64,000 nucleotides of DNA. Source: Sarcocystis neurona (lineage: Eukaryota; Apicomplexa; Conoidasida; Eucoccidiorida; Sarcocystidae). Made by a program: the position numbers and the translations under genes. The stretch is from the NCBI GenBank assembly GCA_000727475.1, contig KL647308.1:1054001-1118000 (forward strand). The letters are read 5' to 3'. Under the pieces are notes generated by a model. It saw only the letters and a list, made by a program, of their open reading frames with translations. It searched no databases and had not been told where the DNA came from. Shown here piece by piece: positions 22,601 through 44,278 of this stretch (position 1 is its first letter; each line of letters opens with the position of its first letter).

Positions 22601-23414
22601 CGTTTCTTCGACGAAAAGCTGTATGTTGCCGCATGGTTTCGCGCTTCTCTTGTTTCCTGCTGGTCGAATTTCCCCCTTGCGTACTGCTGCGACGATGCTG
22701 CTTTCAAGGCTTCGCAGTACCCTCGCTGCCACTTCATCTGTAATGCGACTCTTTTCGATAATCCACCTCATAAACAGAAGCCTGTACTTCAGCGACAGCA
22801 ACAGCCTTGAATGAGAACGCACAGACAGCAGGCTTCGAGCTCCGTTTCTAGAACTTCAGACTGTCGACAATGTCACTGCAGACACGGGAGAAAACATCCG
22901 TGGCAGCAGTCAGGAATCCAACGCAGAGCAGAATTTACCGCACAGGACGAGATAGGCTGCAGCTGTCACACTGCCAGCGCGAATTTGCCCACCGCTGCAG
23001 TAGGAGGTGAGGTGCCACATGATGGCGGAAAGCATCTACAGCAGCGCCAGAGAATTTAAGGAGGACGACACTTGCATCAAGAAGTGACACAGTAACAGCA
23101 GGTCCTACGAGTAAAAAGTGCCAACGCGAGGTTCAGTACCGATGGTAATATATTCGCTGTGGGGTGCCGAAACACGCGCGGCTCACGCGACTCCACTGCA
23201 CCCGCACCAGCGACGGTTCCCGCCCTAGCAGAGCCTGTTAAGGGATAAGGCAGCACGAAAGACAGCAGCACAGTGAATGTGTGCAGCCACCAGCAGCACG
23301 TCCAGCTGCAGGAGCAGCAGGTGCATAGCTCTAAGGGCTGCCCTCCCTGTAGCAGCAGCTACAGCACCTGTGCTAGTAGGTTTTCTGCCTCTGCTTCCCT
23401 CTTAGAAACACACA
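15751..23414. other. Gene desert before BRCA2
   Basis: About 7.7 kb contain only short open frames lacking ATG starts or motifs. Landmarks are (AT)n at 19661-19688 and (GT)n near 21930-21948. An open frame at about 19980-20232 ends in a hydrophobic C-terminus but has no ATG. The 3' part (about 22800-23414) becomes CAG-rich and presumably holds the BRCA2 promoter and leader, but I see no recognisable promoter element. Confidence 0.45.
19661..19688. repeat. (AT)14 microsatellite
   Basis: Perfect AT dinucleotide run in the gene desert. Confidence 0.9.
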
Positions 23415-26400
23415 ATGATAGAAGACATCGGGACAGACTCGGGTCTCACAGGAGACGCCTATACGGACTTCTTATTCCACGACGCCTTCTTGGAAGAGGC
23501 CGAAAAACCATTCGCTTCGGACACTGCTTTTGCACCGGGAACTGTTGCAGCGGGGACTGACGCCGTCGTCGCTGTTGAAGTCCCTCCTATGCATAGAGAC
23601 GGTCTTGCCTGTGGCTCTGCTGCTGGAGCGACTTCAATCTACAGCTGTGCTGCTGCGCCTAGGCATATTGTTGCCGCTTCTTCGGGTGACACCATCCCGA
23701 GCACTTCTGCTGCTGGTACTCTTCCTCCTCCCACTGCTGCTGCTGCTGCGGCTCCTGCTCCGTCTACTCCGCCGAACAAATTTCCGTCGCAGGGTCGCGG
23801 GTGGGGCCTTCGCGTGCATCCTTTAAACGCCTGTCAGCCTGCCGCCGACAGCGCTGAATGCAGAGAGGACAGCAGCAGCAGCACGGGCAGTTCCTATCTG
23901 AGGTTCTGCAGCAGCAGCTCCACCACGAGCAGCAGCAGCAGCGTGAGCAGCGACAGCAATTACTCGAGCATCTGTGGGAGCGATGCGAGCAGCGCAAGCG
24001 CTCCACGTGGCAGCATCGCCAGCGGGGGTCCCAGCAGAAGCAGCAGCGCGTCTAACACGAAGACAAGGAATAGTGCTGACCACACGTTCAGCCCTGATTC
24101 TCGGGGCTTGCAATGCAGAGGCGGCAGCAGTCATGGAGTTCAGACTCAGACAGGGACTTCACCTTCCCGGAATTCTAAAGGCGACGCCTGCTGTAGCGTC
24201 GGGCATTCAGGAAACGATCTTCCGTCTGCTTCCTGTATCTCCTCTTCGAAGGAGACGGCACGCGTGCATCTTTCCACACCACAGCCGCAGCAGCATCCCC
24301 CTCCTGCACGAGTCGCGCCTGAAACTAGGATTGCTTCATCTTCGTCGTCTTCTCCTCCGCAGCCTTACTGTTCCCGTACGCTCCCTGCTGCCGCAGGTCG
24401 TCTCTCCAGTCTTACCCTCCCCGGCGCCACTGCGATGGATAATTCTCAAGCACACCTTCAGCTGCGCGAAGGGACACCGCACGTAGCAGTCAATTCCATC
24501 CCTGCGGTCCTTGCAAGTTCGCTTCATCGTCCTGCTCCTGCCTCTCCTCTCTCTACTGGTGTTGGTTCCACATTTTCTTCGCCTGCTTCTATCTGTCGTC
24601 GTCGTTTTCGTGCAGCAGCTTCCCCTCCGCCGGCTTCTGCTACTGGCGCAGCAGCAAATGTTCCGCCGCCCGGTGCAACCGCTTCAGCTCCCGCTGCTGC
24701 AGTCGCTGGGCGTTCCTCCGCTGCTGATCGTTCCGCTTCCGCTTCTCCTCGTGCTGCTGTTACTTGTGTTTCCTCGGCTGCGTGCAGTTCTCCTGGACAC
24801 CGCTGCGCGCTGCCCCAAGCCGATGTAGCCGGCCCCCTTGCTGCTGCTGCTGCCCCGATTGTGGGACGCGCCGAATACCGCAGTCCCTATAGCAGCAGAA
24901 ACAGTAGCAGGACATCGTCGCTCTTCCGTCACAGCTACTCACGAGAGTCAGGCGTGTTCTGCTGCTTCTCTCCCTCAGCCGAAGTCGACAACCCTTCTTG
25001 TTGCTCTTCTCCTGCACCAACAGAAGTCGAGGCTGCAAGTCCGTATACGCCCTCACCCCGCACCCCACACACGCCGTTGCTGCAGCAGCAACAGCAGGAC
25101 CAGCGGGACGGGGGGAGGCTGCCGTCAGAAGAGCAACAAGGAAGCCGACAGCACGAACAGGTCCGACAGCAGCAGGAGTTGCAGCCGCAGCAGCAGCAGC
25201 AAACACAGCGACCTACAGAGCTGAGGATGCAGCACAGAGGGGAGGAGGAAAGACTTCTGCAGCTGCAAGAACAGCAACAGAGACAGACATCGCCGCGTCC
25301 GCAGCAAGGGGGGTGGAAAAAAGCGGGGCACCAGACAGATGGACAGCAGCATCAGCACGAAGGTCGCCACCAGCAGCCTGAACGACTGCAGCAGCATGCT
25401 CAAAGACCGCAGCAGGAAAAGGAAGGACCTGCACCACACGCGCAGCAGTCGAGTCACCAGGCCCCGCGTCCATCCCCGCCCGAGCAGCTCCAGCAGCAAC
25501 ACGTCTTTGAGAGTGAGGATCAAACGGGCTCTGAGAGACGTTCCCGTGGACAGCAGCAGCAGCAACGCATGCACGTGCAGCAGCAGGAGGGACACGTAGT
25601 CCACCAGCAGGGGGAGTTACAACAACAGCGTGCACAAACAGAGCGAGAAGGGCGACGAGTTTCGATCTACCGAGGTCAGCAGAAGCAGCTGCTGCATGTG
25701 CAGCAGCAGCAGCATCAGCCACAGCAGCAGCCGCGCCCGCAGGAGCAACAGCTACCGCCGCAATTGCAGCAACAGCTCTCCAGACTCTTAGGAGGAAGAC
25801 AGCAGCAAACACAGCAGGAGCAGGAGCAGACTCAGCAGCAAGCATTCGCCTTTGACGTACTATCACGTCCGCAGAAGCACCTGTCGCTGCACGTTCAACA
25901 ACAGGAGACGCAGCGACAGCTTCTCGGCGCGCACCAGCAGCAGTACGTGGTATCGCAGCAGGAGCATCAGGAGGGACGACATTACGAACAGCAGCAGCAA
26001 CAGCACGAACAGAGGCGGCTCCACGGGTGGCGGCAGCAGCTCGAGTCGGAGCGGCAGGACCAGCAGCAGGAGCAGCGTCAGCAGCAGGAACAGCGACAGC
26101 AGCAGAAGCAGCGTCAGCAGCAGGAGCGGATTCATCAGCAGGAGCGGAGTCATCAGCAGCAGCAGCGGCCGCAGGAGAAGCAGCAGGGACACCTTGAAAG
26201 GCGTCTAGAGCAGCAACGGCAGCGACGAGACAGCACTGGAGAGCAGCAGCAACCGAGTGTATTACGTGCACCACGTAGACAAGTACAGCAACTGCTCCGG
26301 CAGTCTGAGCAGCAGCGACAGGATCAGCAGCAGCAGCGACAGGGTGAACAGCAGCAGCACACGCAGGCTGTACTACAAGCCTCCCTTTTCAATCTTCCAC

Positions 26401-29400
26401 ACGTTGGGGAAAAGTTGGAGTCCTTCACGCTCCCTTGTGAGACGGAAGAATGGCAAGAACTTCTTTCTCTCTCTCAGCCGGTCGCAACAATGGCTGAGAA
26501 TATCGAGGAAGATCCTTCAGCAGACAAGAGCTTGCCTAAGGATGACTGCGACGTGGACCCCCGCAGCAGCAGCAGCACGACACTCAGCAGCAGGAGCCAC
26601 GGCGCGGCCTCCAGCAGCAACAGTCCATCAAGTAGTAGCAGGCGCAGCCACAACACGGCCACGGCCCGCGGCGGCCGCACGACAGCCATCACCAGCAGCA
26701 GCAACAGCATTAACGTGACATGCAGCAGCAGCAGCAATGCGACCGGCAGCAGCAGCAGTAGCGCGATCTGCAGTATCACAACAACAACCAGCAGCAGTCG
26801 TTGCTGCTACACGGACTGTAGCAGCAGCAGGAGGGCCTACGAGACGCCGTCGAGGGACGGCACCAGGAAGCTCGAGAGCAGCACCAGGAGCAGCACACGA
26901 TGCAGCAGCAGCAGCAGCAGGACATGCAGGAGTCCTCCGAGGAGTGTCCCCCAAGGCACTGACGTTCTGCGGTGGAGGAGTAGCAGCAACACCGTCCTGA
27001 GTAGCAGCAGCGCTCCTGCGTCTTCAAGCGAAGTCTCCTCCACAAGCAACACCAGAAACAGGGGAGAAGACGACCGCCCGAGCAGCAGCAGCAGCAGCGT
27101 GGACGTCCATGAAAATCTGGCATACCGGCTTCTGTACATCGGTACACCAACTTGCTCCTCACGTGCAGAACCGTCACCGCCACAGCAGGCGGTTTCGGCG
27201 GGAGTGCAGCAGCAACAGCAGCAGCAAACACTCGCGCCTCCGCAACAACAGCAAGAGCTGCAGCAGGGCGAACAGCAACGTCCACGAACGCACCACGTCG
27301 CGCCTGGGCCACGACAACGCCAACAGCAGCACCGCGGCATGCCGCAACAAATACAGCTGCCTCACCGACTGGAACAGGTGGGTAGGTGCAATGTTAAGGA
27401 TATGGACTGGCCTTCGAGCAAAACACAGCAGCAGCACGAGGAACAGCAGCAGCGGCAGCAGCGACAGGAGCAGCAGCAGCAGCAGGAGCATCTAGAAGAA
27501 GATAAACGGCATCCCTGGAGTGCGCTTTCTGAAGAAGAAGATCTGCTAGTGGCCCTCGACTTAGAAGAAATCAATGCTGCTGTAGACGTAGACGATACAG
27601 ACGCCGAGCCACACCAACAGCAGCAGCGGCAGCGGCAACACAAGCAATCCCAGCAGCTGCAGCAGCACCAAGAGCAGTGGACACGACAACAACAACAGAA
27701 CTCGCAGCAGCAGCACCGTCCACAGCGGTCGCCTACGAGACTTGCACAAGAGCCGCCTCAGCGGCTGTCACCTGAGCAGCAGAGCGTCCCACAGCATTGG
27801 TCCCTAAATTTTCAGAGAGGGGGCTTTCTCCGACAGCTGCGGCATTCCCAAGCGTTAAACGCAACAGGTCAAACGGAGCGACAACAACAGCAGCAGCAAC
27901 AACCACTGGGCGCGGAGCAGGAGAAACAACGGGACTATCTCTGGCAGCCGCAGCAACAGTCGATCGATCCGCAGCTGGTGGCGCAGCAACAGCAAGAACG
28001 GCAGCTGCAGCAGCGACAGGAAGAGCAAAACTGGCGTCAGCAGCAACAAGGGCAGCAACAGGAAAGACCAGAGGAGAGACACCGGCAAGAAGCCCAGCAG
28101 AAGCAGCAGGAGCCGAAGCGGGAGCAGGGGCAGCAAGAAGTGGAGCCGCAGGAACGACCGCCGGGAACAGACGGAGACGCAAGGCCCACGTATACTGGCT
28201 TTGCCTTTGCTTCTGGGCGTCCTGTGCTGCTGACGGATGAAGCTCGTCGGCGAGGGAGGCTACAGCTGATGCAGCTGCTCGGAGAAGAGCCGGAGCAACT
28301 GCCGCTGCCACAGCTCAGTCGCGTCCAGCAGCCTCCGCGACGCCGGCTGCTGCTGCAGGAGCCACACACGCCTGACAACACCAAACGTATCAGCAACTTA
28401 CGAGCGACACACGCAAAATTTTCTTTATCTGTTGCTCGTGAAAGTGACGACGCCGACAAAAAGAACTCTAGTAACCCACTTGCTGCTGCTGCCACCTGTC
28501 CTGCTGGCGGGGCCTTTGCCGGGCACGCAGGCGCTGTCTCGCTGTGTTGTACGGCGGCTGCTGCTGCTAAAGGACGGCTTGTTGACAGGCCGGTGGTAGG
28601 TCGAAGCGCAGCCCTGGGTGAAAGAGGAGAAACAGAAGCGATGGAACAAGGTGGTGCGTCAGCGTCCTCAGCATCCCTTGTTGCGAGTGCAGCTGAGGCA
28701 GCAGCAGGAGCCGCAGGGCCAGACACCGCGGCAGCAGGAAGGCTACGAGCCTCTGCGGCAGCATTAGCGCCACCAGGCAGCCCGGGGGCTTCACAAATGC
28801 AGGGGGGACTGGCAGCAGCAAATACAATGGCAGCTTCTGCGGAAACCTCTTCAGCAGCCTCGGGGCTGCCGGAGGGGAGTCCTGCAGATACACCGGCGGC
28901 CGCGGCGAGAGCTGCTGCTCAGTCTCAAGCCTTCGTCCGGGCAGAAGCAGCAGCACCAGCGGCGACAACACCAACGACAGCAGCAAAGGCAGCAGCAGTG
29001 CCGGAAGCAGCTGGAGCAGCAGCACTGGCAGCAGCAGGGGCACCAGCAGCAGCAACGTCCACTGGAGCCGCAGCAGTGACAACAGCGGGGACAGCCGCAT
29101 CACCAGCAGCAGGGGCGGAAATAACATCAGCAGCGGGGGCAGCAACAGGAGCAGTTACAGCAGAAACGTCCGCAAGAAGGACAGCAGCTACAGCGGTGGC
29201 AGAGGCGGCGGCATTGACGACAGGCGGAGTTGGTGTGGAGGAGAAGAACAGCGGGTTTCGACTTGCTTCTGGCCGAGCGGCACCTGCCCCGAGCGCACAC
29301 GCGCGTCGCATGGCTTTGCGACTGTTTCAGCAGACAGAGACTGCAGGCCACCGCCAAAGAACTGATGCTCTTGCCCGGTCGTCAACGGGTTTTGTCGCCC

Positions 29401-32400
29401 CGCGGCAAGTGAGCCTTCCTGATGCGCGCGCTGCTCTTCCTGCGGTTGCACCCTCCGTACGACTCCGGGGCTCCACGAGGTCAGCAACAGACGCAGGATG
29501 GCACTCTTCACGACCTGCTCCTGCTGCTGTTGCTTGTGGAGCAGCGGCAGTGGAGGCGGCAGCAGCAGCGGAACAGCAGGCGTCGGTCTTGACAAGGACG
29601 ACGGGGAGAGGAGCAGCTGCCACAGCGCCAAGGGCAGCAGCTATAGCGGTGGAAGGTGGTGGACAGGCAGGCGGTGCAGTGGCAGCAGCAGCGGCGGCGG
29701 CAGCTCCAGGTCCAACTAAGGCAACAGCAGCAGGTGAAGCAGGTGAAGGAGCAGCACGCCATTTGGTAGTTGCTGCGAAGGAGACAGCAGCAGGAACAGC
29801 ACGTGTGTCTCGTCAGGCCTCGAGGTCAGCTCAAGACGCCAACCCGCGGCAAGCGTCTGATTACCTGCAACAGCAGCAGCAGCAGTCGCACGACGCGCTG
29901 CAGTACGACCAGACAGCAATACGTCTCTGCAGCAGTGCAATGCGAGAAACACCGCTCCGGCTTCCTGTTGTGGGAAGCCATACGAAGAATAGCAGCGACA
30001 GTAGCTATGGCGTGAGCTCGTCGTCGAGCGACAGCATCAGCAGCAGCAAAGGTTGCCTCGACAGCGGCTGCAGCAGCGGCGGCAGGCACCTCAGCGGCAC
30101 CGCCAGCCCCAGCAACAGTAGCAGCAGCTGCAGCAGGAGCGACAGCAGCACATACAGGAGTGACGTCCCGACGGACCCAGACTCAATGCAGGGGCCGCAG
30201 CAGCAGGCGACAGCCTGCGAAGAGGCGTGGTGGGAAGAGGAGGACTGGGGCAATATCAACCTTGAGAACGACAGCGCGTGTTGCGCTTCAACTGCGCCGT
30301 TGAACAACAACAACAACAACCCATGCTGCAGCGGGATACCAGAGTCGAGCAGGAGCGCCAGCAACAGCAACACTCCGACGGGGAACTGTAGCCGCAGAAC
30401 GTCGTCGGCTGCGTCAAGGGAGAGCTGCTGGCATCACGACGCGACTGTCTGCAGCACCAGCAGCAGCGTTGTTGCGGACAGCGGCCTGAGTTCTTCAGGT
30501 AGCGACCCGAATTGCAGCACCTCTGCGGTGGCGAGCAGCACCAGCAGCAACGACAGCAACGGGTCTTTAAGCTGCAGCAGCAGCAGCAGTTTTTCTGCCT
30601 TCGGGACGTGCAGCAGCAGCACCTTGGCCGCATGCGGCACCAGCGCGAAAAGCTTGTTCCGGTTTGCTTCCGGCCGCGACGCAGTAGTAAGTGAGTCTGC
30701 CCGCAAAAGAGCCCGCCTGATATTTGACGAGTTCGAGCAGCAGCCTCAACCGCAGTGGCTGCGGCAGCAGCACAAGCAGCACCTAGGTGTGGGACCGGTG
30801 CAGCAGGAGAGTCATCACCTCGACGCACGACAGCAGAGGAGGGGACGCGAGGCGCAGCACGAGCAGCCGCGGGCCTTGCAGCAGCAACAGCCGCACCGGT
30901 ACGAAAGCAAGCAGCAGCAGCGGTTGTCGTGCGGTCAGCCGAAGACAGGCGCTGCCTGCAGTGCTGTCTCGACCCCCTCTGCCTTCTCTTCACGAGAAGC
31001 AAAGCTGGCACTTCCTAAGTTTTGCGACCCCACACACAGCAGGAAGTTTGCCCTGGAGGCGGTAGTACGCGACGCCAGCAGCGCTGCAGACGGCCAGGGT
31101 GGCGCGTGCGACTGCGGCAGCGACCCTTCGAACCAAAAGACGTGGCGGAGCGCCAAGCCTGGCAACGAAGCAGGCAGCAGCACTTTCGCTCAGCAAAGCG
31201 ACAGCAGCAGCAGCTGCTGCAAGACGGCGCCCCAAGAGGCCGCGCTTGCCTTCCTGGACGAGGAAAGGACCCTCTGCAGCAGCACCAGCTGCAGCAGGAG
31301 CGCCTCCGAGTGCGACAGCACCGGTGGCAGGAGGTCGCCAACGCGCACCAGCTCCTGCAGCAGCAGCAGTGGCGGAGGCGGGAACCGCAGCAGCGACGCT
31401 GGCTACGGTATTGGCAGCAGCAACACAGCTGGTTGTAATAGCAGCAACAACAGCTATCAAAGTGGTAAGAGCACCACAATCAGTCGTCGATAGAAAAGAG
31501 ATACAACCCACAGCCGCTTCCAGTCGATACGTCGCAGCAGGGCGGACTGCACCAGCAGGGCGGACTGCAGCAGCAGCGCGGAATGCAGCAGCAGCGCGCA
31601 CTGCAGCGGCCGTTGTGAAAGAAGAAGCAGGGCAGAGCTTGCAGTCAGAGTGATACTAGCGGCGAGTCGCCAGGGGAGACGGAAGAACTGCGTCCGTAGC
31701 GCAGAGCGCAGGATCGCAGACGGTGCTTAGAAACAACGTCGCTGGCGGTAGCTACTGTTCGTCTTCTCTTACCGAGCGAGATCTTGAACGAAAGAAAGCG
31801 CTGCCCTACCTACCACCAGCAGCCACTTCAAAGCAGCGCGAGCGTGTGGGGTCAGCGCAGCAGCAGATTGTTGCAGAGCAGCAGCCGCCGCGGGTAAACA
31901 AGCGAGCAACGTTGTTGTGCGCAGCAGGTGATCAGCAGCAGGTACCTTGGAGCCGTGTAGCGACTTGGAGTAGGCGACAGCGCCTCTCCTGTCACCAGCA
32001 GCAGCAGCGGGAGCAGCAGCAGCAGCGGAAGCAGCAGCAGCAGCGGGAGCAGCGGGAGTCGCGACAGCAGCAGCAAGAGCAGCAGCGACGGCAGCAGCAG
32101 CAGTTCCCCCGCAGAAGTGTGATATCTCGTACTTCCAGTGATTTCGTAGAGACGTGCAGAAAGAGAGGCAGAGACGCCCCCTTCTGCGTCACTTGTGTGC
32201 AAGCGCGACGTCCACTGGGCAGAAAGAAATGCCAATATTTTTTGACGCGGGCTGTTTGCTTGTTGCTGCTGCAGCACCACCCCAGGACGCAATAGCGACA
32301 GTAGAGCGAGTCTCCGCCGTCGGTCTCTGGGAAGAGACGGGAGGCGGAGACGACGAACGGAGACGGCTAAAATCTTTTTCGACGAAGGCAGCCAACAGAG

Positions 32401-35400
32401 CAGACGGTCTTGCTATTGAAGCGCAGCAACCGACTGGTGATGACGCAGGCCTGCTGCTGTTGCCCAACAACGCCGAGACCGCTGCCAGCCCACGCACCTC
32501 GCCTGCAGCGACATCTCCTGCGTCGTTTCCTCTTGTTGATACTCACACAAGTGCGTGCCCTGCTGTGGCCTTGTACAACGCTTGCGCTGCTGGTAGCGGG
32601 AACTGCAGCAGCGGGGCTGGTTTAAATTCTCGCGTAGATGCGGCGCAGCAGCATTCTGCTCCTGTTTCTCTTGCTGCTGTCCCGGCACTTCTGGAGACTG
32701 CGGCCGGTAAAACGACGCCTGACATTGTTGCAGCAGCAGAACGAAACGCAGGAACCGGGAGAACAGAGGGAGCAGTGACTTGTGTCGCTAGGGGAAGCAG
32801 CACCGCCGCCAACGCTGCTGCTGCTCCTGCCCGCCGGTGCGCCGCCTCTGCTGCGACCACAAACCACTCACACGCCGACGCGGCTCCTGCTGCTGGCGCC
32901 GCCGCTCCTGCTGCCCCTTCTTCTGCCGCTCCTGACGCCGTTGCTGCCTCTCCCGCTGCCACTGCTGCTACCGCAGCTGCTGCTGCTGATGCGGCTCGGG
33001 GTACCGGTGCAGGGGCCGCGCCTGACGCTGTGGCCGTTGCCTGTGCTGTTGTTTCTGCATCTGCTACTGTTGCTTCCGCCGCAGGTGCTGATGCTGCACC
33101 TTGCTCAGCTCGTGAGTTTGCAGTGCCTGCAGGAGGTTTTTCTTTTGCTTCAGGCCGAAGAGTCACCATCAGTTCGGCAGCGCGAGAAAAAGCACGACAG
33201 CTGCTGTGGCTGGACGGCCTGGATGAATCTGTTCGCAGCAGGAGGTGGGCCGGGAACAGCAGCATCTGCAGTGAAAGCAGCAGCAGTAGTGGCATGGGCC
33301 CTGGCAGCAGCAGCATCAACAGTAGTTGTAGCGGCAGCTGGAGCAGCAAAAGCAGCCGTGCGAATGCCAGCGGCAACAAGTCGGAGTGGGAAGGGCTCTG
33401 CAGCTCGTCAGGCAGCACCGTCGGCTGGGGAACGGGCAAGAGCACCTGCAGCGGCTCCACGGGCAGCAATGACATCAAAGCGAAGCACTGCAGAGACACG
33501 TGCAGCTCTGCGGACTACTCCTGCGTCTCTACTGCAAACGCCTGCCTGAATTTTGACTGCGTCTCATCCACCGGCGTTAGCTGCGGTAACAGCAGCAGCT
33601 GCTGCATGCGTCTGGACGTGCCCTGCGTTGGCACAAACAGCACAGATGGTCCACAGGTAAGGCCTCTGCGATGCGGACAGCAACCGGGTGAGCCGCAGCA
33701 CCAGCAAAACGCTACTGAAGCTGAACGCAGCAGTGGTTTGCTGCTGCAGCTGGACGCACCGCAAAGCTGTTGTCCTCCGGGTTCCCTGTGCCCTGGCGGC
33801 GCTGCTCCTGCTGCTGCTGGTGACGAGGCGGAAGCGGACTCGGTAGCGAGAAGCGCAGCAGGAAAGGCCAACGCAGCAGCAGGGGTAGAAGACAGACCAA
33901 GTGCCAGCACAACAGCACTACTCGAATACAAAGCACGCGCTGCTGCAGCAGGAGCAGCAGCATCAACTGACGCAGCGGCAGACGTCCAAGCAACGGCTGC
34001 AAGTTCATCAGCTCCTAGAATGCATTCTGCAAGACAGCCATCGCAGGAGTGGTCTACAAGAGCTGCTCCACTTTTCTTGGCCGAGGCCCCACTCGTAGCA
34101 GCGACGACGGCGTATCCTGCTAGTGCTCCTGCTGCAGCAGATACGTCAGTCTTCGCTGCAGAGTCGGGCGCCTCTGTCTGTCAGTCCTGCTCTCTCGTTG
34201 AACTGGGTACAGTTCAGAGCGAGCTAAGCAAGGCGTGTGGCGCGTGCGCCTCTTCTGCTGAAGAAGCTACCGCAGCAGCAAAAGACACAGGTAGAAGCCT
34301 CGAGGCTGGTGTCGATGCCTTGCGGCAGCAGGCAGCCGTGTGCAAAGACGTGGCAGTCTGCACGCCGCCCTTAGCAGCAGCAGGCGAGGCAGCACGCGCC
34401 ACCAAGCAGGGCGCGACGCAGCCGCCACCGAGTGACGCAACAGCAAACACCCCATCAGCAGGAGAAGCGCCACGTCCCGCAGCGGCTCCCGCAGAGCGTC
34501 CGTCAACCTGGACGGCTTCTGTTCTGAAGGAAGAACGCAAGCTGCAGCTTCATCTCACGGCAGCGTTGCCAGCAGCAGCAGCATCAGCAGCCGTGGTGGT
34601 GCCTTCCACAAAACTCTGCCGAGATCTGTGGGAGGCTTTTGCGCGGCCCCTAGAGGCGGTGCTGGAGCAGGACCATGAGCAGCGGCGGCAGCAGCAGCAG
34701 GACACCTGCTACGTGACGATGGGGGGGGGCCGCCGGAGAGCACTTTCACCCGTTGCAGAGACTCTGCTGGACCCGGATTCGCTGACGCACGGCGGTCAGC
34801 AATCGCGAAAGCAGCTCTGTGTCTTCGCTTTCAGCGAGCAAAGTCGAGGACGATGTCGCTGGGGGGCCGCAGCAACCGGTGGGGCCGCAGCCACAGGTGG
34901 GGCCGCAGCGACAGAGACGTTAGCGGAAGGAGCAGAAGAAAGTGTAACAAGGACACCGCAGCTAACACGCCAGAGAAACCCAGCAAAGAGTGAGATGATA
35001 TCGTTGAGAGTCCGCTGCAAGCCAGTACAGAGAGAAGAAGCCCTGTTCGCGGCCGCACAGCAGTCGAAAGCAGCGGTAATAAGGCACAGCAGAGCCGCAA
35101 GTGCGGTGCCGAGCGGGGGAGTGCACCTGCTTGCTCTGCCCTACGAGGTAGCGAAGCGCTGCGATCCTCTGCGGTGTCAGACGTACGCTGCTGCACGAAA
35201 ATATCTGCTGCTGTGGCCTTCGCAGCAGCGGCAAAGTGGTTGCAGCAGCAATGTCACGGTGGCAGGGGCGCAGGAAGTCTACTACATGCTGCAGACGTAC
35301 CTGCTCCTGAAGCAGCTGCACAAACAACGGGCCAAACAAAACCCGGGCGTCGAAGCAGGCCCTGCACCGTTCTACTCCTCATCCTGCGTTTTTTCAGCAG

Positions 35401-38400
35401 GGACAGCAGCAACCGCCTGGCCTACAGCACCGTCCGTAGCAGCTGCTATCTCTCCAGCAGCGTCAGTAGTACCACCTCTTTACACAGCAGCAGCGTCTCA
35501 TCCTGGCACCCCCTCGGCCCGTCCAGAAGCACCTGATGACGCAAGAGAAGCTTCCGGTGAAGCAGAAGTCAGAATGGCTTCAACGGACATGGGGCGTCGT
35601 GCTGCAGGGATCGACTGCAGCAGCCTGGTTCCTGCTGCTGCTCCTGCTGGCGATTGTAGACACAAATTTTCTCTCCTTCCTTCACACAGCAGCAGCGACA
35701 CAGTGTTTCCTCTTCGTGAACCGATGCGCCTTTTGCAGGCGCTGCACCAACAAAAGCAGCCCCAGCAGCCAGAGCAGCAGCAGCAGCAGCACCGTCACCA
35801 ACAACAGCAGCAGAACATGCAGGAGGCGCAGCTTCCCACGCTTGCAGGAGAGCAAAGAAGCGAGAATCACACCGGACGGAGCATAACGCCACTGCTGGGC
35901 GAGCACCGTCACCGCGACCCTCCACAGGTCGAAGGACAGCAGACTACGTGGGGAGACGCTTGGCGGCGCGAGCCTCATGTCCAACAGCAGCAGCAGGAAC
36001 GCGCACTGCAGCGTGGCCACATACGTGCACTGCAGCAGCTTTTCGCGGAAGCTGCTCCGTCAAAGACGTCAAGGTTCGACAACTGCTGGGTAGAGCACCA
36101 CTACGCATTGCTGTGCTGCAAAGCGACGCAGCAGTGGATTTACGAGTATGGACGGCGGCTCTATCAAGCACCGACGTTGCCAGGCGCAGGAACAAGCGAC
36201 TCTCTGACAACAGCAGCAGCTGCTGCCTCTTCCATGCCAAGCAAGGCAGCAGCTGACGCTGTCTCTGATGCAGGAACAGCAGCTGCAGCAAAAGCTGCCC
36301 TAGGCTGTTCACAATTTTCGGCGACGGCTGGCAACTACGTACTGCCTCCTCGCGACGTGAAGCAGCAGTGCCTGCCGACACGTCCGTTGCTGCCCAAGCA
36401 GCAACAGCAGCAACCACATACAGGTGAGGAACACGTGTCGAATGAAGCCACTTTTCCTCAAGAGTCTGGCAGTTTCAACCACTCGTGAAGATGCTGCAGC
36501 AGCCCTTGCTTCCTCTCCTGCGTTTGCGGCCTTTGCTACGTATGTGCTGCCTCTGCGGCGTGTGGGGTTTTTGCTGCCTGCGCCGCCTGTGTGCTGCAGT
36601 CGGCGGGTCAGTGACGTGCCCGCCGTGTCTCGATCCTATTCGGCTGCTGCGGCAGCTGCTGCTACGCATGGAGCTCGAGACGGACGGCAGCAGTCTCCTG
36701 GACAGGAGCAGCAGAGCGGGCCGCAGGAGAGGCCGCCCGGTGATCCACAGCGGCAGAAGAAGCAACTCGGACGGCAGCGGCGTTGCTGAAGGTCGCGGCA
36801 ACGATGCGATCTGCCCTGACGCCAAAGGCAGGTCCTTGTGCCTTACTCGCTCGGAGGGGGCCAACAGCGCGAGTTCAAGCCCGTGTGGGGAACAGCACAG
36901 CAGGAGCAGCAGCAGCGGCGTGCGGTCAGTCCTGCGACGGGTTTGTGAGGGAGACACGAGTCCTGCTGTGCCGATGGTGCTCGAAGTGCTCGAGTTTCTT
37001 CATGTTCGCGACGGCTTGCTGCCCACTGCTGTACAGGAGGAAATTTTCTCCCACTCGTCAGCACCACTTTTCTCCCCTCCCTCTCCGGGCGCCTTGCTGT
37101 CGCTGCTTCTGTCAGACGGCTGGTACGTTCTGCCAGCTGACGTTGTCGACCCCGTCCTTGCCTTTCCGCTGCTCCGAGAGGTCGCCAACGCCCACCGCAG
37201 CAGTCCCGAGGGCTGCAGCAGCACCAGCACATGCTGCCTTTGGGGAGCCTTCGCAGGCAGCTGTGCCTGCAGCAGCAGCAGCGGCAGCAGCACTGGCGCG
37301 ACCAACGGCAGCAGCAAGGCACGTAGAGAAAGCGGCAGTGACCTGTTCGTGCGGGGTGCTCACTTGAACAGCAGCAGCGGATGGAGCGACACACGCAGGG
37401 GCAGCAACGAAAAGAGTGGAAGCGCCATATCACACACATTCGTGTACAAGTCCTCTTTGCTGCCTTCACGGCTTCGTTATCGTCGTTTGTTTGTACAGGG
37501 CGCACTCCTGCTTCGCTCTGAAGGGCAACAGCAGCAAAGTAGTGGCAGCGACGGCACATGTCCACTTGAGAATCAACTCGCCTCTCCCCGCCTCTTGCTC
37601 CACGCTGGAAACTGCCGCCCTGCCTGCACTGCAGCAGTTTGCTCGGCTTCTCCGTTTGCCCCTAATATTTCTTGTGAGGGAGCTACGAGAGCAGCGAGGA
37701 ACGCGTCGAATTTTCTCTTTCGGCTTTCTATGGGCAACTCCCGTCCTCTAGGCTTCTGCTTCGTCTCACAGCGTCCTTCATGCATACAGCAGCCAGAAGG
37801 TCAGGAGGCGCGTCTGGTGCCTCTCGCCATACGCTGCCTGGGACGCGGCAGCAGCCTCAGAAACAACTGCGAAGTCGGACTCATTGACGTAGTGGTGCTG
37901 CGACGCTTGCCTCTGCGCTACCGCGTGCGGTTCCCTGCTTCAACAGCCGAAACTGAAGACCAAGAAGATGACGCACAAGCAAGTGGTAGTGAAGCAGCTT
38001 TGGACGAGCAGAAAGACGAGGAGTTGTCGCGTTCTGCTGCTGAAGCTGGCGCAGCGGCTTCTGGCGGTGGTGCTGCTGTCGCTGCTGCCGCTCGCGCAGC
38101 TGCTCAGAACGCAGCAGCAGCAGAAGGCGGGACCGCAGAGAGCTTGATTATGACAGAAGGGGAGATGGTGGCGTGGTTGCAGGAGGAGGAGGAGAGAATT
38201 GCAGTGGACAGAGAAGCCAAGTGGGAAGCGCTGCAGCAGCAAATCAGCAAGGCAATCCAAAGACGTCGGAGCACGAGACGACGCAAGCGGAAGACTCTCC
38301 CTCAATATGACCGGAGAAGGCGGCAGCCGCGGCACAACAGCGACTCGCAGACAGACACGCGCTCAGCCGGAGGCAACCAAAAAAGCGACGGCGAGGAAGG

Positions 38401-41400
38401 GTCAGAGTCCGGAAAAGAAGAAGAAGAGGAGTCTGCAGAAGACGACGAAGTGTCCGAGCTGCTGCGGGAGAAAGAGAGGCTACTCGAGCGCTGGCAACGC
38501 GGAGACGCAGATAACAGAAGCAGGGCCGAACCGCAGATGCAGCTCCTTGTCGTAGACGCGATTGTGTACATACGTCTGCTGCAGGCCGGTGCTGCTCACC
38601 ACCGAGCTGCTGCAGCACTTACCCTGGAGCAGGGGGCAAAGAAGCAACCGCAGCAGGCGGAAGAGGAGCAGCAGCGCAAAAGACAGCCGCGGCGGCAGGG
38701 GCTTTCCCCGAGACGACAGCAGCAGAACGGCGCCCATCGACAGCAGCGTGACCAGGAACGGCGGGAAGTGCTATCACAGCAACAGACGGAGCAGCAAGAT
38801 ACACAACAGCCGCACGCGCAGCAGCTTCCGCAAGACGCCCAGCAGCCGCAGCCGCGGCAGCAGCAGCAAGAAGCACATGCACTTTGCCCCCACCCTTGCA
38901 GCGTGCCACTGCAGCAGCTACTTGTGTCCTCAACACAGCTTGATGCGTGGACACTAGAAGAAGGGCGCCCAGCAGCAGCCAGGTCACAGAGCGCAGCAGA
39001 GGCTAGTTGTAAGGCCGCGCAGGAGTGGAGGGCCGTCGCAGCAAACGCTCCTTGTGGAAGAGACGCTGCAGCAGGAGTTGAAACGCAGCTAGGCACAACA
39101 TCTTCTCCAGGAAAAGAAGAGCAACAGCTGCTCCGTCTCAGACGGCTGTTTATGAAGAGCATGTGCTGGCTGGTACTTTGCGGCAGCATGGCCAATTGCG
39201 AGGAGGCGCAGGAAATGAGGGAAGGCGAGCGCCTGCGTGTTTCTTCTCTGCAGCAGCTCGCGCCTCCATCTCCGCTGCCTACGCACCAGCAGCAGCGGCA
39301 ACCGGGGGGCCACGAAGTGCCACACCCGCAGGGCGCGGAGACGGCGGAAGCACTACAAGAGGCACTTGCGGCAGTCGGAAGGGAAGAAGCTCGTTTGCGC
39401 AGGGCTCTGCAGGGACGGTGTCGACTGCTACTTCCTCGGCTGCGTACTACAAATGGGTAATAGCTCAATGCTCTTGCGGCGGCCTTCCTCTTGCAATACC
39501 TATTATCTCGAAGAAGCGGTGTCTGCGGCGCTTCTCTTCTGTAGACCGACGGGGCTGGGATCTTCACTGCCTCCACCGCAGTAATGTCGTCGTATACAGG
39601 GACGCAGCTTCGTAGTAGCTGACAGCAACGCAGCGAGTCTCTCTGTGCGCAGGAGGGAAAATTCCCTGCTGCTGATCTGCTGCAGTCTCTTTTAAAATAG
39701 TCGCTCCGAATCCTGAACTCCCGTTGCTTCCACTCGGCGTCGATACGTGTGTGTGCATCTGTGATTGCTACAACGCAGGTGACCCAGTCTCTCCGTCTCG
39801 CTCTATCTAAGTAGTGTATATAAGTAGGTGTGTGTGTGCGTCTGTTATTGCTGCTATACGGGTCTCCCTTGCTCTCTGTCCGGCTCTATCTAAGTAATAC
39901 ATATAAGCAGATGTGTGTGCGTGCGTCTGTTACTGCTGCTATACAGGTGGCTCTTTCTCTCTGTCTGGCTGTATCTAAGTAATGCATATAGGCGGATGCA
40001 TGTAGACTTACACAGCTGTCCAGCGGTCGCTGTGGCGACTTGATACTCGTCCATACATAGAGGCAAAAAACTGATACTGCTTGTTGCGCCTGGCTAAGCA
40101 GCGATGCGTAGTCATGCAGTACGTGCGCCCGCTCACAGAACGGTGGTTTGGCGATGGCATTTCATCTTTTTCTAAAAGCTGTCCACACAACAAAAGCAGC
40201 AGACGTCTGTGGACAGGGACTGCTCCTTCCTCCCGGCCCTTCTCCTCCTGCTCCTCTTGCGTCGTAACTGCACAAAAAGCGCGCCGCTGCTGCTGCTCCT
40301 GCAACTCCTGGCGCTGCTGCTGCTGTTCCTGCTGTTGGGCCATCTCCTGCTGACCTGGCTGCTCCTCCTGCGTCTCTCACTCTCGCTCCTGTTGCTGCTG
40401 CTGCTGCTCTCATTGTTGCTGCGGTTTATTGAAGGTCGGGCCCGCCTGCAACTCCTGCATGCAACTGGTTCGACGTCTCTTGCTGCCACTTTGGTGTTCC
40501 TGCGGGTTCTGCTGCTGGAGTAATTCCCAGAGGTTGTTGCGCCGCTACTTATGACCACTGTTGTTGCGGGCGCGCTTTGTTGCGGCACATGTCTATACAT
40601 ATTACGTCTGCTGCCAATGCGTGCGACAGGGTCAGTGAGCTTCTGGAGACGTAGTACTGCAGGTGCAGCAGCACCAGCCACCGCGAAGTCAGTCTGCCCT
40701 GTTGCCACTCGTGCTACGGCACAATGTCGCCGTGCGCTTCTGCTGGCGCGTTTTCCGCAGCTGACAAGGGCAGCCCTAGCCGTTCTGCCGTCTGCTACTG
40801 TGTCTGTGCTGCTTCTTCCCACTGCGGCTCCTACGGATGCTCCCAGCGACTAGTGCTTCTCAGGGCAGCGTGCGGTGTATATATATATATATATATGGGC
40901 GTGTGTGTGTTTTGCAGGTCCGCACTGCAGTACGTTCGCATGCAAGAATTGTCTCCTACGCTTTTGGAGGGCAGCAACTATCCAGAGAGTAGCCCGCTGC
41001 AACAACAGCCTCTGCTGGTACAGCAGAAAAGGGATTCCTTTCAGAGTTACGTCGGTTGCGGAGGGAATGCTAAAAGTATCACCACACCACCAAGTACAGG
41101 AGCGGAGTCTCCTGCAACTCCAGCGGAAGCAACTAGCCCGCGAGGACATGCAACCCTGGTTCCTTACGCTCTAACATCATCATACTTGCGTGTGTTTACG
41201 GCGTGTGCTCCATTTTCTCCTGAATGTGGACACGACTTGCCTGCCGCTCTGTCTGCCAGTGTCGCTCCTCTGACTCGCACCCTTGTTGCTCCACTCGTAT
41301 CAGCTGCCGCTGCAGCGGGGCCTGCGACAGCAGCAGCAGGGGCAGCTGCTGCTGTTTTGCCTCCACGTAATGCTCTTTTGCACATGGCAGCTCCTCGCAA

Positions 41401-44278
41401 GTGTGGTCTCTCCAGACGGCCTGCTGCTGCGCGTGGTGCAGTTGCCGGTGCCGCCGCTGTGGGTGGGCCGGCAGCTGCTGGCCCGGCTGTCGGCAAAGCG
41501 GATCTTGCTGATCGTTCACACCGTCACGAGGCAAGCGGCTTCTGTCAGACTTCTTCCGTTCAAAGAGGAAGGGCGTCGCAACTGCGTTGTCGAGTCTATG
41601 CCTGTTACCCTGTTGATGAGACCCGCAGCAGCAGCGCAGTGGTACGTGTACGAAGCAAGTTTTCAGGACAGCGCCAGGGAATTTATCTTCCTCTGCCATT
41701 CACTCTGCCCCTTTTCGTAATGCGAGCTGCTGTTGGTGAAACGTTGCCGGCGATGCCCCTGCAGCAACAGCGGAAGCGCGGGTCATGTTGCGTGGAGCAG
41801 CAAAGTGTCACAAGCAACAGGATAGAGAGGAGAGAGGGCCACAGCTGTGATATAGAGGAGGACGCGCTGACAGACCTAGCGCGAGTGGCTACATCTGCGT
41901 GCGTCTGCCCGAGCGAAATGCTTCTGTCTACCCTGCGCTGTCCCGCCTTATCGATTCAACATTTCGCGCTCCTGTCCCGGTATAATCCGGCGCCTCAATG
42001 CTGGTGTGGCAGGCCGAGAAAACACGTTGTCCCGCAAGTTAGCAGCAGCGACTCGCGGGCCGATAGCACCAGCATCCAAGCTGACGCGGACAGTAACGGC
42101 GACGCGGCCGATAGAGTCCACACCAGGCGTGGCAGCGTTACTAATTTCATTGGGGGTTGCAGCAACCTGGGCACCAAGGAGGAGGACAAGTGCAGGAACA
42201 GCAGCAGGAGCAGCGAAAGCGTAGCGTCAGCGCAGAAGACGACTTGCGACCGTGAGCATCAGGAAGTGGAGAGTGCAGGAAAGGAGGGGGAAGAGGTGGA
42301 GAAACATGGACCGTGTTCTCCAAAATGTAGTAAAAGAACGACTTCTGCCGCACTGATCACGCCGGCTTCACTTTTACATACAGCTGTTAGCTCCAGAAAC
42401 GAGTTGCCTTCTGCTTTTCCTTCCCTGAGCAATGACACTGCGGCTGTTGCGTATCTGGGCGTGCAAAGCGGCATGAAAGGCTTTGCTTCATGTCACGCAG
42501 AGGCAACAGTATCGAAGGAGGAGGCGGTGGCAGCACAGCACGTCGAAGTATCAATACAGCCACCGTCTCCAGTCGGCTTAATGTGTGGAGTTCCGTACGA
42601 CATCGTAGGCATATTGATGGCGGTTGAGCAGCAGCTACCGCAGCAACCGCTTTGCAGCGGCAGGTTTGAAAGAACACCGACCGCGGTAACCAGAGATGCA
42701 CCTGGCGCAAGCGCCGAGCAGCAACTGCAGCACCAGCTTGAAAGAAGGGAAGGGCTGGTGGTTTTTTTAATGACGTTGAAGGGATGCATTTGTTGCGTGC
42801 GGCTACGAGGTTCGGATTCTGTCACTACAAGGAAGAACGACAACAGACACAGAAAAAACACAAGCAGCGGCAAGAATACCAGATCTGAGGGCTGTCCACA
42901 GATCTCACGTTGCCTGCAGACACTCCTGAAACTCAGTGAAACCAGCCGCGAAACTGGCAGACTGCCGAGGAGAGCGAAGCCCTGGATAATAGAAGACGTA
43001 GAAACTAATAACGAGGCGCTTCGGCGCTGGTGGCTCGTTCAGGCTGCTGGAACTTCCGATGAAACGTGCCTCCGATCAGAATCGCCCGACCAACAGCGAC
43101 ACGCAGTGGCCGAACAGTATACACAACGGCGCTGCACGCTACCTACGCATACACAGAAACACGAGAATGCACACCAAGAGCAAAACGTCCTGGCAAGCGT
43201 GCAGCAGGACCGTCAACTGCAGCGGTTCTGCGAGGCGCCGCAGCACGGCCAGGGGCAAGAAATAAAGCGTCTTTGTCTGTCGCACCTTGGTGGCGCAGAA
43301 TCGTCATGCGTAGCTTTGCGGTGGCTGGTGGTTCAGCATGTGGAATACGAGGGAAGGGATGACTTTTTTGGAATTTATAACTTCTCGGCTGCTGCAGCGT
43401 TTGTTACCCTTACTTGCGGCACGACAGCGGTAGCCCCTGCACCAAGGGTTTGCGGCTCTCAAATTCACGGCTCATCTCTGCAGCATTGCTCGAGATCGCA
43501 ACTTACGCGTCCCGCTGCCTCTCGCCCACCAGAACCTGCCACCGACTCTACGGAGATACGGTGCATCACACAGTCTGCTTCGCGTCCAGCTCCTGGTGCT
43601 GCCGGCCCCTTCGGTGATGCCGCTGTTGCTTCTTCCACCGACCTCGCTGCAAATAGCAGCTCTTGTACAAAGCCCACCGCGGGCGGCTTACCGCTGGATA
43701 CTGCTCCACGTCCACTTTCACGTGTGAAAAGCGAATCGGGAGTCGACGCTGCTCCGGACTGTGTACACGGCGCTGCTGCAACGAGTAGAGCCCTACGTCC
43801 GTGTCCTGCGGCTGCAGTCGTCACGAATACGAAACTAGGGAATGATAGAACATCTCCGATCACCTCCTGTGCGCTAGCGAGTCGCAGGAGGCACCGCATT
43901 AGAAAAGCACCTGACAATCTATCCAAAGATTTCGAGGCGGACAAGAAAGCTGCACGCAACCATACCGACGATGGACGATTCCTGCCGTATACTTACAGCA
44001 GCAGCGTCCGATCTACAGAGGGAAGCAGCTCCACATTGCCACACCTGTGTAAGGTAGAGTTAAACGCGCTATTCAAAAGAGGCGGTGGTGGTGCTGCGGC
44101 CGATGGAGACGAGCAGACCACTACAGGGGAGAACGCGCTCTCGGCAGAATACCTCTCACGTGTAATGCAGCAACTAAAAGTGGCACGAGACACAGTTGCT
44201 GTTGCTGTTGCAAGCAGGAGCTGCTGGAAATACAGACACGAGTTTGCAAACGAATTACTTTCGACTTCAGACTTCTGA
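23415..44278 (+). CDS. BRCA2: Giant BRCA2 homologue (RAD51 mediator of recombination repair)
   Basis: BRCA2 loads RAD51 on single-stranded DNA during homologous recombination in the nucleus. I join four exons: 23415-31464, 32275-36423, 36600-39456 and 40918-44278. The total is 18,417 bases, divisible by three, giving 6,138 residues plus TGA. The ATG follows an in-frame TAG at 23403. The junctions are AGTG|GTAAGA to GCTGCAG|CA, ACAG|GTGAGG to GTGCTGCAG|TC, and ATGG|GTAATA to TTTTGCAG|G; phases agree at all three. Four BRC repeats (FxxASGR) begin at residues about 1595, 1948, 2415 and 2972. The C-terminal half matches the BRCA2 DNA-binding region: helical (WVEHHY at 3955), OB1 (SDGWY near 4240), Tower, OB2, and OB3 from about 5573. 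Long Gln, Ser and Ala tracts separate these blocks. The identification is secure. The first intron is the least certain, because 31723-32295 holds another open CAG-rich frame that could be an extra exon. Human BRCA2 has about 3,400 residues. Confidence 0.9.
25080..26390 (+). repeat. Poly-Gln-rich CAG tract cluster in BRCA2 exon 1
   Basis: The BRCA2 frame reads CAG in register as Gln, interrupted by Arg, His, Glu and Leu, for over 430 residues. No domain was recognised. Other in-frame clusters are Ser-rich at 26560-27080, Gln-rich at 27190-28150, Ala-rich at 28470-29790, Ser-rich at 29990-30640 and Ser-rich at 31180-31440. Confidence 0.9.
28191..28290 (+). other. BRC repeat 1 of BRCA2
   Basis: The sequence reads GFAFASGRPVLLTDEARRRG, then an LQLMQLLGEE helix. 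It matches the BRC consensus F-x-x-A-S-G-(K/R)-x-V-x-(V/I/L)-(S/T), with the second hydrophobic module less canonical. In characterised BRC repeats the FxxA motif inserts Phe and Ala into the RAD51 oligomerisation pockets. Confidence 0.88.
29253..29335 (+). other. BRC repeat 2 of BRCA2
   Basis: The sequence reads GFRLASGRAAPAPSAHARRM, then ALRLFQQ. FxxA and ASGR are kept, but the hydrophobic residue after GR x is Ala and the centre is Pro-rich. This is probably a weaker RAD51 binder than the others; that is inference. Confidence 0.8.
29388..29435 (+). other. Possible degenerate BRC-like segment
   Basis: About 45 residues after repeat 2 the frame reads GFVAPRQVSLPDARAAL. It resembles a BRC repeat that has lost the Ser-Gly and one position of the core. 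The spacing Phe-Val-Ala-Pro-Arg-x-Val is suggestive, but chance resemblance cannot be excluded. Confidence 0.3.
30657..30745 (+). other. BRC repeat 3 of BRCA2
   Basis: The sequence reads FRFASGRDAVVSESARKRAR and then LIFDEFE. Both BRC modules are recognisable: FxxA (FRFA) and a second IFDE module corresponding to LFDE of human BRC4. It is the most canonical of the four. Confidence 0.9.
31465..32274 (+). other. Proposed BRCA2 intron 1, CAG-rich
   Basis: The donor GTAAGA (31465) and acceptor TTGTTGCTGCTGCAG (ends 32274) have compatible phase. The intron is 810 bases. An open Gln-rich frame at 31723-32295 inside it could be an alternative exon, but no conserved motif supports it. Confidence 0.5.
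33138..33225 (+). other. BRC repeat 4 of BRCA2
   Basis: The sequence reads FSFASGRRVTISSAAREKAR then QLLWLDGLDE. FxxA, ASGR, V-x-I-S and K-A-R are all in consensus order. It lies in the second exon, after the proposed intron at 31465-32274, which supports joining that exon to the same gene. Confidence 0.9.
34980..36210 (+). other. BRCA2 helical domain (DSS1-contacting region)
   Basis: The strongest match is NCWVEHHYALLCCKATQQWI at about 36081-36140. It corresponds to the WVYNHYRWI segment near the end of the helical domain in animal BRCA2. Upstream blocks such as SLRVRCKPVQREEALFAAA and LPYEVAKRCD probably belong to the same domain, split by Ser/Gln insertions. In other eukaryotes this domain contacts the small acidic protein DSS1. 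Confidence 0.75.
36424..36599 (+). other. BRCA2 intron 2 (176 bases)
   Basis: The donor CAG|GTGAGG at 36424 and acceptor GTGTGCTGCAG ending at 36599 both have phase 1. Removal joins the end of the helical domain to the CLDPIRLLRQLLLRMELE segment, which matches the helical-to-OB1 transition in animal BRCA2. Confidence 0.8.
36620..37945 (+). other. BRCA2 OB1 fold
   Basis: The blocks occur in the same order as in animal BRCA2: LLSDGWYVLPADVVDPVLA (the LTDGWY strand), RRLFVQGALLL, FRLSMGNSRPLGFCF and CEVGLIDVVVLRRLPLRY (the GCVDVIIQRAYPIQW strand). Ser and Gln insertions sit in the loops between strands and leave the strands intact. Confidence 0.88.
37946..38530 (+). other. BRCA2 Tower-like region
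   Basis: Between OB1 and the first OB2 strand is a charged helical segment with EGEMVAWLQEEEERIAVDRE and then a basic and acidic stretch ending LLREKERLLERW. Position and helical character fit the Tower, the pair of long helices that protrudes from OB2 in animal BRCA2. Sequence alone cannot show the three-helix tip. Confidence 0.6.
39747..39994 (+). repeat. Minisatellite in BRCA2 intron 3, three copies of 83-85 bases
   Basis: The anchor TATCTAAGTA or TATCTAAGTAAT recurs at 39804, 39887 and 39972. Each copy also has GTGTGTGCGTCTGT, TGCTGCTATAC and a CTCTCTGTC block. Copies 2 and 3 are closest to each other. Confidence 0.8.
40008..40343 (-). CDS. Antisense open frame nested in BRCA2 intron 3, hypothetical
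   Basis: It starts at a true ATG (40343) and runs 111 residues to TAA. The N-terminus is Gln-rich (from CTG repeats read on the other strand) and the C-terminal 60 residues have mixed composition with RSVSGRTYCMTTHRCLARRN. Only a short open stretch lies upstream before a TGA. It could be a small gene or a chance frame; there is no recognised domain. Confidence 0.2.
   Translation of the reverse strand: MAQQQEQQQQRQELQEQQQRRAFCAVTTQEEQEEKGREEGAVPVHRRLLLLLCGQLLEKDEMPSPNHRSVSGRTYCMTTHRCLARRNKQYQFFASMYGRVSSRHSDRWTAV
42580..43460 (+). other. BRCA2 OB3 fold
   Basis: VPYDIVGILMAVEQQ matches the EVDLIGFVVSV strand that opens OB3. LVVFLMTLKGCICCVRLRG matches the following strands, and LRWLVVQHVEYEGRDDFFGI matches the late LQWRPESKSGLLTLF region. 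The remaining 270 residues to the stop at 44276-44278 are mixed, with a basic patch RRRHRIRKAP (about 43890) that could act in nuclear import. Confidence 0.85.

Follow-up and report, generated by a model that had tools for sequence, protein, structure and literature searches.

A BRCA2 protein combines one folded DNA-binding domain with a disordered tether along which short motifs bind RAD51. In the BRCA2 proteins described elsewhere, RAD51 is bound by the BRC motifs, single-stranded DNA is held by the OB core together with DSS1, and RPA departs as RAD51 is loaded (PMC8301801). Apicomplexan members of the family are already described in Plasmodium, Toxoplasma and Cryptosporidium (PMC2408642, PMC4853372, PMC9270840). 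Here we analyze a 64,000-nucleotide stretch of the Sarcocystis neurona genome (contig KL647308.1, positions 1,054,001 to 1,118,000 of the forward strand; called the window below, and numbered from its first letter), which holds a real gene that is very probably the BRCA2 of this genome.

In the Sarcocystidae relative Toxoplasma gondii, the candidate BRCA2 TGME49_243265 is described with BRC-like repeats upstream of one OB1 domain (pfam09103, residues 2505-2619; PMC4853372), which is also the arrangement found here, with OB1 near residue 4,237, ~1,700 residues further along than in the T. gondii protein. The number of repeats differs: going by the published descriptions, TGME49_243265 has near 16 BRC-like repeats (PMC4853372) and apicomplexans including T. 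gondii have six to eight (PMC2408642), whereas there are four here. The Brca2 of Plasmodium berghei (PBANKA_1343400) likewise has few BRC repeats (three), which are reported to interact with PbRad51 in a two-hybrid assay, and the sporogony of the knockout is reported not to progress; unlike in the present gene, filler of the coccidian type, rich in glutamine (Q), serine (S) and alanine (A), is not mentioned in the parts of that report available to us (PMC9270840). In human and mouse BRCA2, the FxxA-containing BRC repeats (for human, as described in PMC8301801) are followed by the helical domain, OB1 and OB2 in the same order as here, but these proteins have eight BRC repeats against our four, and the tower and OB3 are undetected here. 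No Eimeria or Sarcocystis BRCA2 gene like this one appears in the titles and abstracts listed by literature searches on BRCA2 with either genus. The BRCA2-type gene is real and extreme while its filler is in itself a known coccidian feature, so that we are dealing with a known kind of protein brought to an unusual size through a known kind of repeat.

A four-exon gene model

We read the locus, with a probability of roughly 0.83, as a BRCA2 orthologue, the sole one found, in which four BRC repeats are followed, in the expected order, by a helical-domain end, OB1 and an OB2 start, with long coding filler both between and inside these parts. The open-frame list of the window contains four long frames on the + strand (23406-31493, 32142-36488, 36446-39460 and 40655-44278). 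When these are joined at 31464/32275, 36423/36600 and 39456/40918, translation from the ATG runs through 18,417 nucleotides, that is 6,138 codons and a stop, without an internal stop. The junction phases are 1, 1 and 2, in agreement with the original prediction of four exons whose phases fit and whose total is divisible by three.

Exon 1 (23415..31464, within the open frame 23406-31493) begins with the ATG start, is Q/S/A-rich and carries BRC repeats 1-3. Exon 2 (32275..36423) is A/S-rich and carries BRC repeat 4 and the first half of the helical domain, and exon 3 (36600..39456) carries the helical end, OB1 and the OB2 start, followed by a Q-rich region. The proposed exon 4 (40918..44278), an open frame with its stop at 44276-44278, may be a separate gene. 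Intron 1 (31465..32274, GTAAGA...TGCTGCAG) could be a single intron or two introns flanking an additional exon: its 810 nucleotides contain most of a 211-codon stop-free frame (open frame 31660-32295) whose codon bias resembles that of the exons, which leaves room for an additional exon of at least ~70 codons. Intron 2 (36424..36599), with the donor GTGAGG after an exonic CAG, lies inside the helical domain, and the third proposed intron (39457..40917, 1,461 nucleotides) may instead be the gene end. All of these features are on the + strand.

The length of the frame is far outside what base composition produces in simulation. The longest open frame is 2,695 codons, whereas the longest produced in 200 simulations (100 runs with the same 3-mer content and 100 with the same 6-mer content) is 605. 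The coding frame of exon 1 has no stop in 2,683 codons, compared with 40 and 73 stops in the other two + frames and 37 to 58 in the - frames.

BRC repeats

All four of the FxxASGR repeats listed in the original prediction are present. The motif F..ASGR occurs four times in the protein, where 2,000 shuffles yield 0.0075 occurrences on average, and the pattern F.[FTLS]A[SG]G[RKN] gives only those same four matches in all six frames of the window. Repeat 1 (GFAFASGR..., residues 1595-1621, 28197..28277), repeat 2 (GFRLASGR..., residues 1947-1974, 29253..29336), repeat 3 (LFRFASGR...IFDE, residues 2414-2440, 30654..30734) and repeat 4 (GFSFASGR..., residues 2971-2997, 33135..33215) all lie on the + strand, and their starts are spaced 352, 467 and 557 residues apart. 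When copies 1, 3 and 4 are made into a profile, it finds those copies at 47-50 bits, as is inevitable, as well as repeat 2, the weakest copy and one residue longer, at 2.8 bits, and no others.

Repeat 4 comes closest to the described family, with 19.4 bits for PF00634 (cut-off 20.3) and the human BRCA2 BRC peptide 8c3n_B as its best PDB match (E 0.24). The three-repeat profile, compared with the PDB sequences, has the human BRC peptide in second place at E 1.3, and repeat 3 by itself gives nothing relevant among the PDB sequences. A search for the BRC family over the whole genome (122,989,501 bases in 74 contigs) returned no match, and its controls returned none either. The second BRC tetramer is described as two hydrophobic residues, any residue and D, E or Q, located 17 residues after FxxA (PMC10684384). 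Judged by eye, this rule is followed exactly by IFDE of repeat 3, which thus has both RAD51-binding tetramers at canonical spacing, and one residue late by LFQQ of repeat 2, while repeats 1 and 4 have no strict fit; one of the four repeats therefore satisfies the rule strictly and two of the four leniently.

Helical domain and OB folds

The Pfam family BRCA-2_OB1 (PF09103) matches exon 3 at 36926..37144 (+) over profile positions 1-59 of 123 (about 1-60). Its score depends on how the sequence is cut, exceeding the cut-off of 25.6 in three of six cuttings (26.2, 26.5 and 26.2 bits) and falling below it in the other three (24.4, 24.7 and 22.0 bits). Among the matches listed for the 123 Mb genome, it is the only one to OB1.

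Nine blocks of the mouse BRCA2 DNA-binding domain (PDB 1miu) were located on the 6,138-residue protein and scored against 1,000 shuffles, and the test was repeated without gaps using mouse-rat profiles (1miu and rat 1iyj), again with 1,000 shuffles. Three blocks are significant and collinear with the BRCA2 order. The helical-end block at residue 4076 (CLDPIRLLRQLLLRMELETD, residues 4076-4095, 36626..36685, +) is beaten by none of the 1,000 shuffles in either version, the OB1 block at residue 4237 by three (none when ungapped), and the OB2-start block at residue 4492, within the OB1/OB2 junction block (NCEVGLIDVVVLRRLPLRYRV, residues 4489-4509, 37865..37927, +), by four (six when ungapped). The best whole-protein place of the first-helix block, at residue 3955, also falls in the right order (candidate helix WVEHHYALLCCK, residues 3955-3966, 36087..36122, +), at a score that 438 of the 1,000 shuffles beat.

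The helical family PF09169 has no match on the untrimmed spliced pieces. After removal of the inserts, it is the sole family listed, with 14.1 bits, or 12.6 bits in a longer cut (cut-off 25), and none of five scrambled or reversed control versions matched. This match spans the exon 2-3 junction and therefore supports that splice, which is the best supported of the three junctions. Of the motifs that the original prediction had placed in the order helical, OB1, OB2 and OB3, the helical end, OB1 and the OB2 start thus hold their collinear positions. OB3 escaped detection, as did the tower and the later half of OB2, with no BRCA2-family match to any of them on whole or trimmed pieces. The Pfam profiles proposed for checking the spliced translation fared unevenly as well, OB1 passing its cut-off in half of the cuttings but repeat 4 and the helical domain staying below theirs and OB3 giving nothing. 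A search for the OB3 family over the genome gave no candidate, and had no positive control. The comparison of the DNA-binding-domain pieces of the window with the PDB sequences did not return BRCA2.

Low-complexity filler

The filler makes up a large part of the protein, as had been predicted when thousands of low-complexity residues were proposed between the functional parts. Low-complexity windows cover 49% of the residues, compared with 6% after shuffling, with shares of 68%, 47%, 45% and 13% in exons 1 to 4, and Q, A and S together account for 36% of the residues. The homopolymer runs in it are short, with the longest at 8, three Q, A or S runs of at least 7 in 6,138 residues, and the longest asparagine (N) run at 6. 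A coccidian homopolymeric amino acid repeat (HAAR) protein is described as one with runs of at least 7 of A, S, Q, L or N (PMC9131526), and with three such runs among the Q, A and S scanned, the protein only just falls within this class; the bulk of its filler is low-complexity sequence without long runs.

The codons of exon 1 (Q encoded by CAG in 76% of cases and S by AGC in 48%) make it fair to call the sequence CAG-derived, as the original prediction did, but the tracts are degenerate and contain no long pure runs. CAG-class triplet runs occupy 7.7% of the exon bases against a background mean of 1.59% and maximum of 7.06% (20 of 22 pieces of 10 kb, the two with Ns being dropped). CAG-type repeats in coccidian coding DNA are well described, reaching 30% of the proteins of E. 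falciformis and 57% in a second Eimeria species (PMC4287421, PMC7564333, PMC9131526), and compared with the homopolymeric repeats in these reports on Eimeria, the runs here are short and degenerate. The genome itself resembles that of Sarcocystis or a close relative and not that of Eimeria, with 20 listed matches to PF04092 (SRS/SAG surface antigens) and none to PF11054 (the Eimeria TA4 family), a negative for which no positive control gave a match. Since coccidian genomes are known for such filler, only its extent in this gene is surprising. In the same genome, low complexity is absent from two RAD51 open frames and covers 17% of one of four myosin exon frames, so the BRCA2 gene has been hit harder by filler than those genes.

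The extra sequence is also found within the DNA-binding core. From the helical to the OB2 landmarks, the protein has 537 residues where mouse BRCA2 has 196 (~340 extra, 2.7 times as many), and the excess between successive helical, OB1 and OB2 landmarks is 94, 86 and 161 residues, of which 94 is the least certain because its first landmark is the non-significant helix. The filler therefore separates the domains and also enters the folded core itself, most likely as insertions in loops.

Alternative readings of the locus

Several observations weigh against reading the locus as BRCA2 in the form given above. Taken singly, BRC repeats 1-3 have no Pfam match, and the PF09169 match is both below its cut-off and dependent on trimming. 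In the block test, the tower block and those of the second parts of OB2 and OB3 were placed elsewhere with shuffle-level scores, and the block for the second part of OB1 was significant at a wrong place, residue 2014 (beaten by 2 of 1,000 shuffles, or 6 of 1,000 ungapped), which marks a limit of the test itself. None of 12 pieces spanning the exon 4 area, whole or trimmed, matched the BRCA2 OB3 family. Structure prediction of OB1 from the single sequence failed, with a mean predicted local distance difference test (pLDDT) score of 34.6. Database searches with lengths of ~520 to 7,160 residues returned no homologous proteins, a result that says little because the coccidian content of the database was not established. 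Independent support exists for one of the three splice junctions. In the RAD51-like gene of the same genome, a stretch of ~130 codons, placed by comparison with human RAD51, looks like an intron yet is in frame and free of stops, so that a stop-free frame alone is no proof of an exon in this genome.

This last observation favors a reading in which splicing removes most of the low-complexity stretches of the BRCA2 gene as stop-free introns and leaves a protein of ordinary size. We consider this very unlikely, since the coding frame of exon 1 is free of stops over its whole length where the other + frames are not, intron 1 has stops in all three + frames, and the excision of most of the filler would require many in-frame stop-free introns. 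The idea that CAG-rich DNA produced a long open frame by chance, its BRC-like motifs being coincidental and the gene unrelated to BRCA2, has even less to recommend it: CAG-class repeats would reduce the stop frequency in several frames, but neither the 3-mer nor the 6-mer simulations ever rose above 605 codons, and the OB1, helical-end and OB2-start matches are collinear. With the OB1 match, the 2,695-codon frame set against the simulations and the collinear mouse blocks, we rejected this reading in practice and leave it a vanishingly small probability. Improbable as well, if less so, is a locus of two genes in which exon 1 is a separate BRC-repeat gene and BRCA2 proper begins near the ATG at 32229, giving one BRC repeat and the DNA-binding core in fewer than 3,500 residues. 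The mediocre donor of exon 1 (4/7) and the frame with coding bias in the 810-nucleotide intron 1 would suit it, but three of the four BRC repeats sit in exon 1, in the same orientation and directly upstream, the phases of exons 1 and 2 agree, and the intron 1 acceptor TTGCTTGTTGCTGCTGCAG is pyrimidine-rich; in the candidate BRCA2 of T. gondii, moreover, repeats and OB1 are described in one protein (PMC4853372).

The 3' end of the gene and the size of the protein

A BRCA2 orthologue at this locus could end in either of two places. The proposed intron 3 has a donor scoring 3/7 that is overlapped by an in-frame TAA TAG at 39458-39463, and with tandem in-frame stops at a weak exon 3 donor, the protein may end there, at 5,019 residues. 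It would then lack OB3, and exon 4 would be a separate downstream gene, possibly starting from the ATG at 40940. We put this reading close to even odds, just on the lower side. The length of the proposed intron (1,461 nucleotides), the missing OB3 match in exon 4 and the donors of other genes speak for it: in the RAD51 and DMC1 genes of the same genome, the five assignable donors score 5, 6, 5, 5 (or 4) and 6, all above the 3 of intron 3, while at a sixth junction, in RAD51, the sole listed site scores 4 and is located 22 nucleotides further on. Fungal BRCA2 is also described as lacking OB3 (PMC10684384), so the absence of OB3 would not exclude membership in the BRCA2 family, and two OB folds are predicted for the P. 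berghei protein (PMC9270840). On the other side, the phases of exons 3 and 4 agree, the acceptor at 40917 looks good, and the mouse OB3 block DVVGVVVSV finds its best place in the whole protein in exon 4 and in the right order. That place, at residue 5580 in a weak OB3 candidate (residues 5576-5589, 42587-42628, +), is not significant: shuffles do better in 166 of 1,000 cases when the whole protein is searched, in 100 of 2,000 when the search is confined to a restricted region and in 529 of 1,000 in the ungapped version. Gene-type codon bias begins at ~40.9 kb, which fits an acceptor at 40917 and a start codon at 40940 alike. High values are, however, also obtained at 40.2-40.5 kb, a stretch of the proposed intron 3 that looks non-coding, and in another frame of intron 2, which makes codon bias weak evidence. 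The proposed intron 3 also contains a tandem repeat at 39747-39990, with an 85-bp unit in 2.9 copies.

The protein is thus 5,019 residues long if the tandem stop ends it and 6,138 if exon 4 belongs to it, or at least ~5,000 and possibly ~6,100 residues. Of the BRCA2 of about 6,100 residues that had been proposed, the identity is borne out by the BRC repeats and the helical/OB1 order, but the exact size is not, 5,019 residues being a serious alternative.

RAD51 partners and proposed function

Both a RAD51-like and a DMC1-like gene (PF08423) are found in the same genome, the assignment of which is which being our reading; the RAD51-like gene lies outside the window (contig C1:9370500-9375500). 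The parasite RAD51 retains the YARA motif, and in human RAD51 the YARA stretch forms the pocket for FxxA (BRC). In an alignment by eye, the parasite protein also has a leucine at the position of M158 in human RAD51. The same M158-to-leucine change is reported for the P. berghei RAD51 (PMC9270840). For DSS1, the genome has one match, at 28.3 bits and below the cut-off of 32.2.

From its family membership and the presence of a RAD51 partner in the genome, we infer that the protein is a RAD51 loader. Its BRC repeats would bind RAD51 via the FxxA pocket, its DNA-binding core, with DSS1, would hold single-stranded DNA, and the protein would load RAD51 onto RPA-coated single-stranded DNA like other BRCA2 proteins. 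The filler would most likely act as a neutral flexible tether and surface loop, and may have originated in the CAG-type repeats, prone to slippage, that coccidian genomes tend to accumulate, followed by decay through point mutation; it would be tolerated because the short motifs through which BRCA2 acts are set far apart along a disordered chain. More tentatively, and less likely than not, the protein may be a working BRCA2 of ~6,100 residues in which repeats have expanded both the RAD51-binding chain and the loops of the helical-OB core, making the four BRC motifs a RAD51 tether of very long reach.

The gene can be regarded as a natural experiment that stretches both the BRC tether, with repeat starts 352 to 557 residues apart, and the folded core, with its ~340 extra residues. 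It could be used to ask whether RAD51 loading depends on the length of the tether and where in the OB core loops tolerate insertions. The original suggestion that the gene naturally tests the amount of disordered spacer compatible with BRCA2 is reasonable, and can be extended since the extra sequence is also present between the landmarks of the core.

Neighboring features

Downstream, a multi-exon myosin heavy chain gene occupies 49903-60050 (+), with PF00063 matches of 120.8 bits (53900-54292) and 35.3 bits (57081-57512), and weaker sub-threshold matches at 59703 and, to the myosin N-terminal domain, at 49903. Near the start of the window, the open frame 2055-3056 (+) matches the final part of the AAA_12 domain (PF13087) over profile positions 166-194, with 38.1 bits against a cut-off of 27, and 681 Ns at 3624-4304, with AT dinucleotide repeats on both flanks, represent an assembly gap or a masked stretch. 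An 805-residue open frame on the - strand (13205-15622) is Q-rich in one stretch and has a MAT1-like match that is weak and stays below its cut-off (13.5 bits against 25). Outside the window, a 7,628-residue open frame (contig C4:15764-22528) contains five SRS/SAG domains (PF04092) among the 20 matches listed, an unusually long array.

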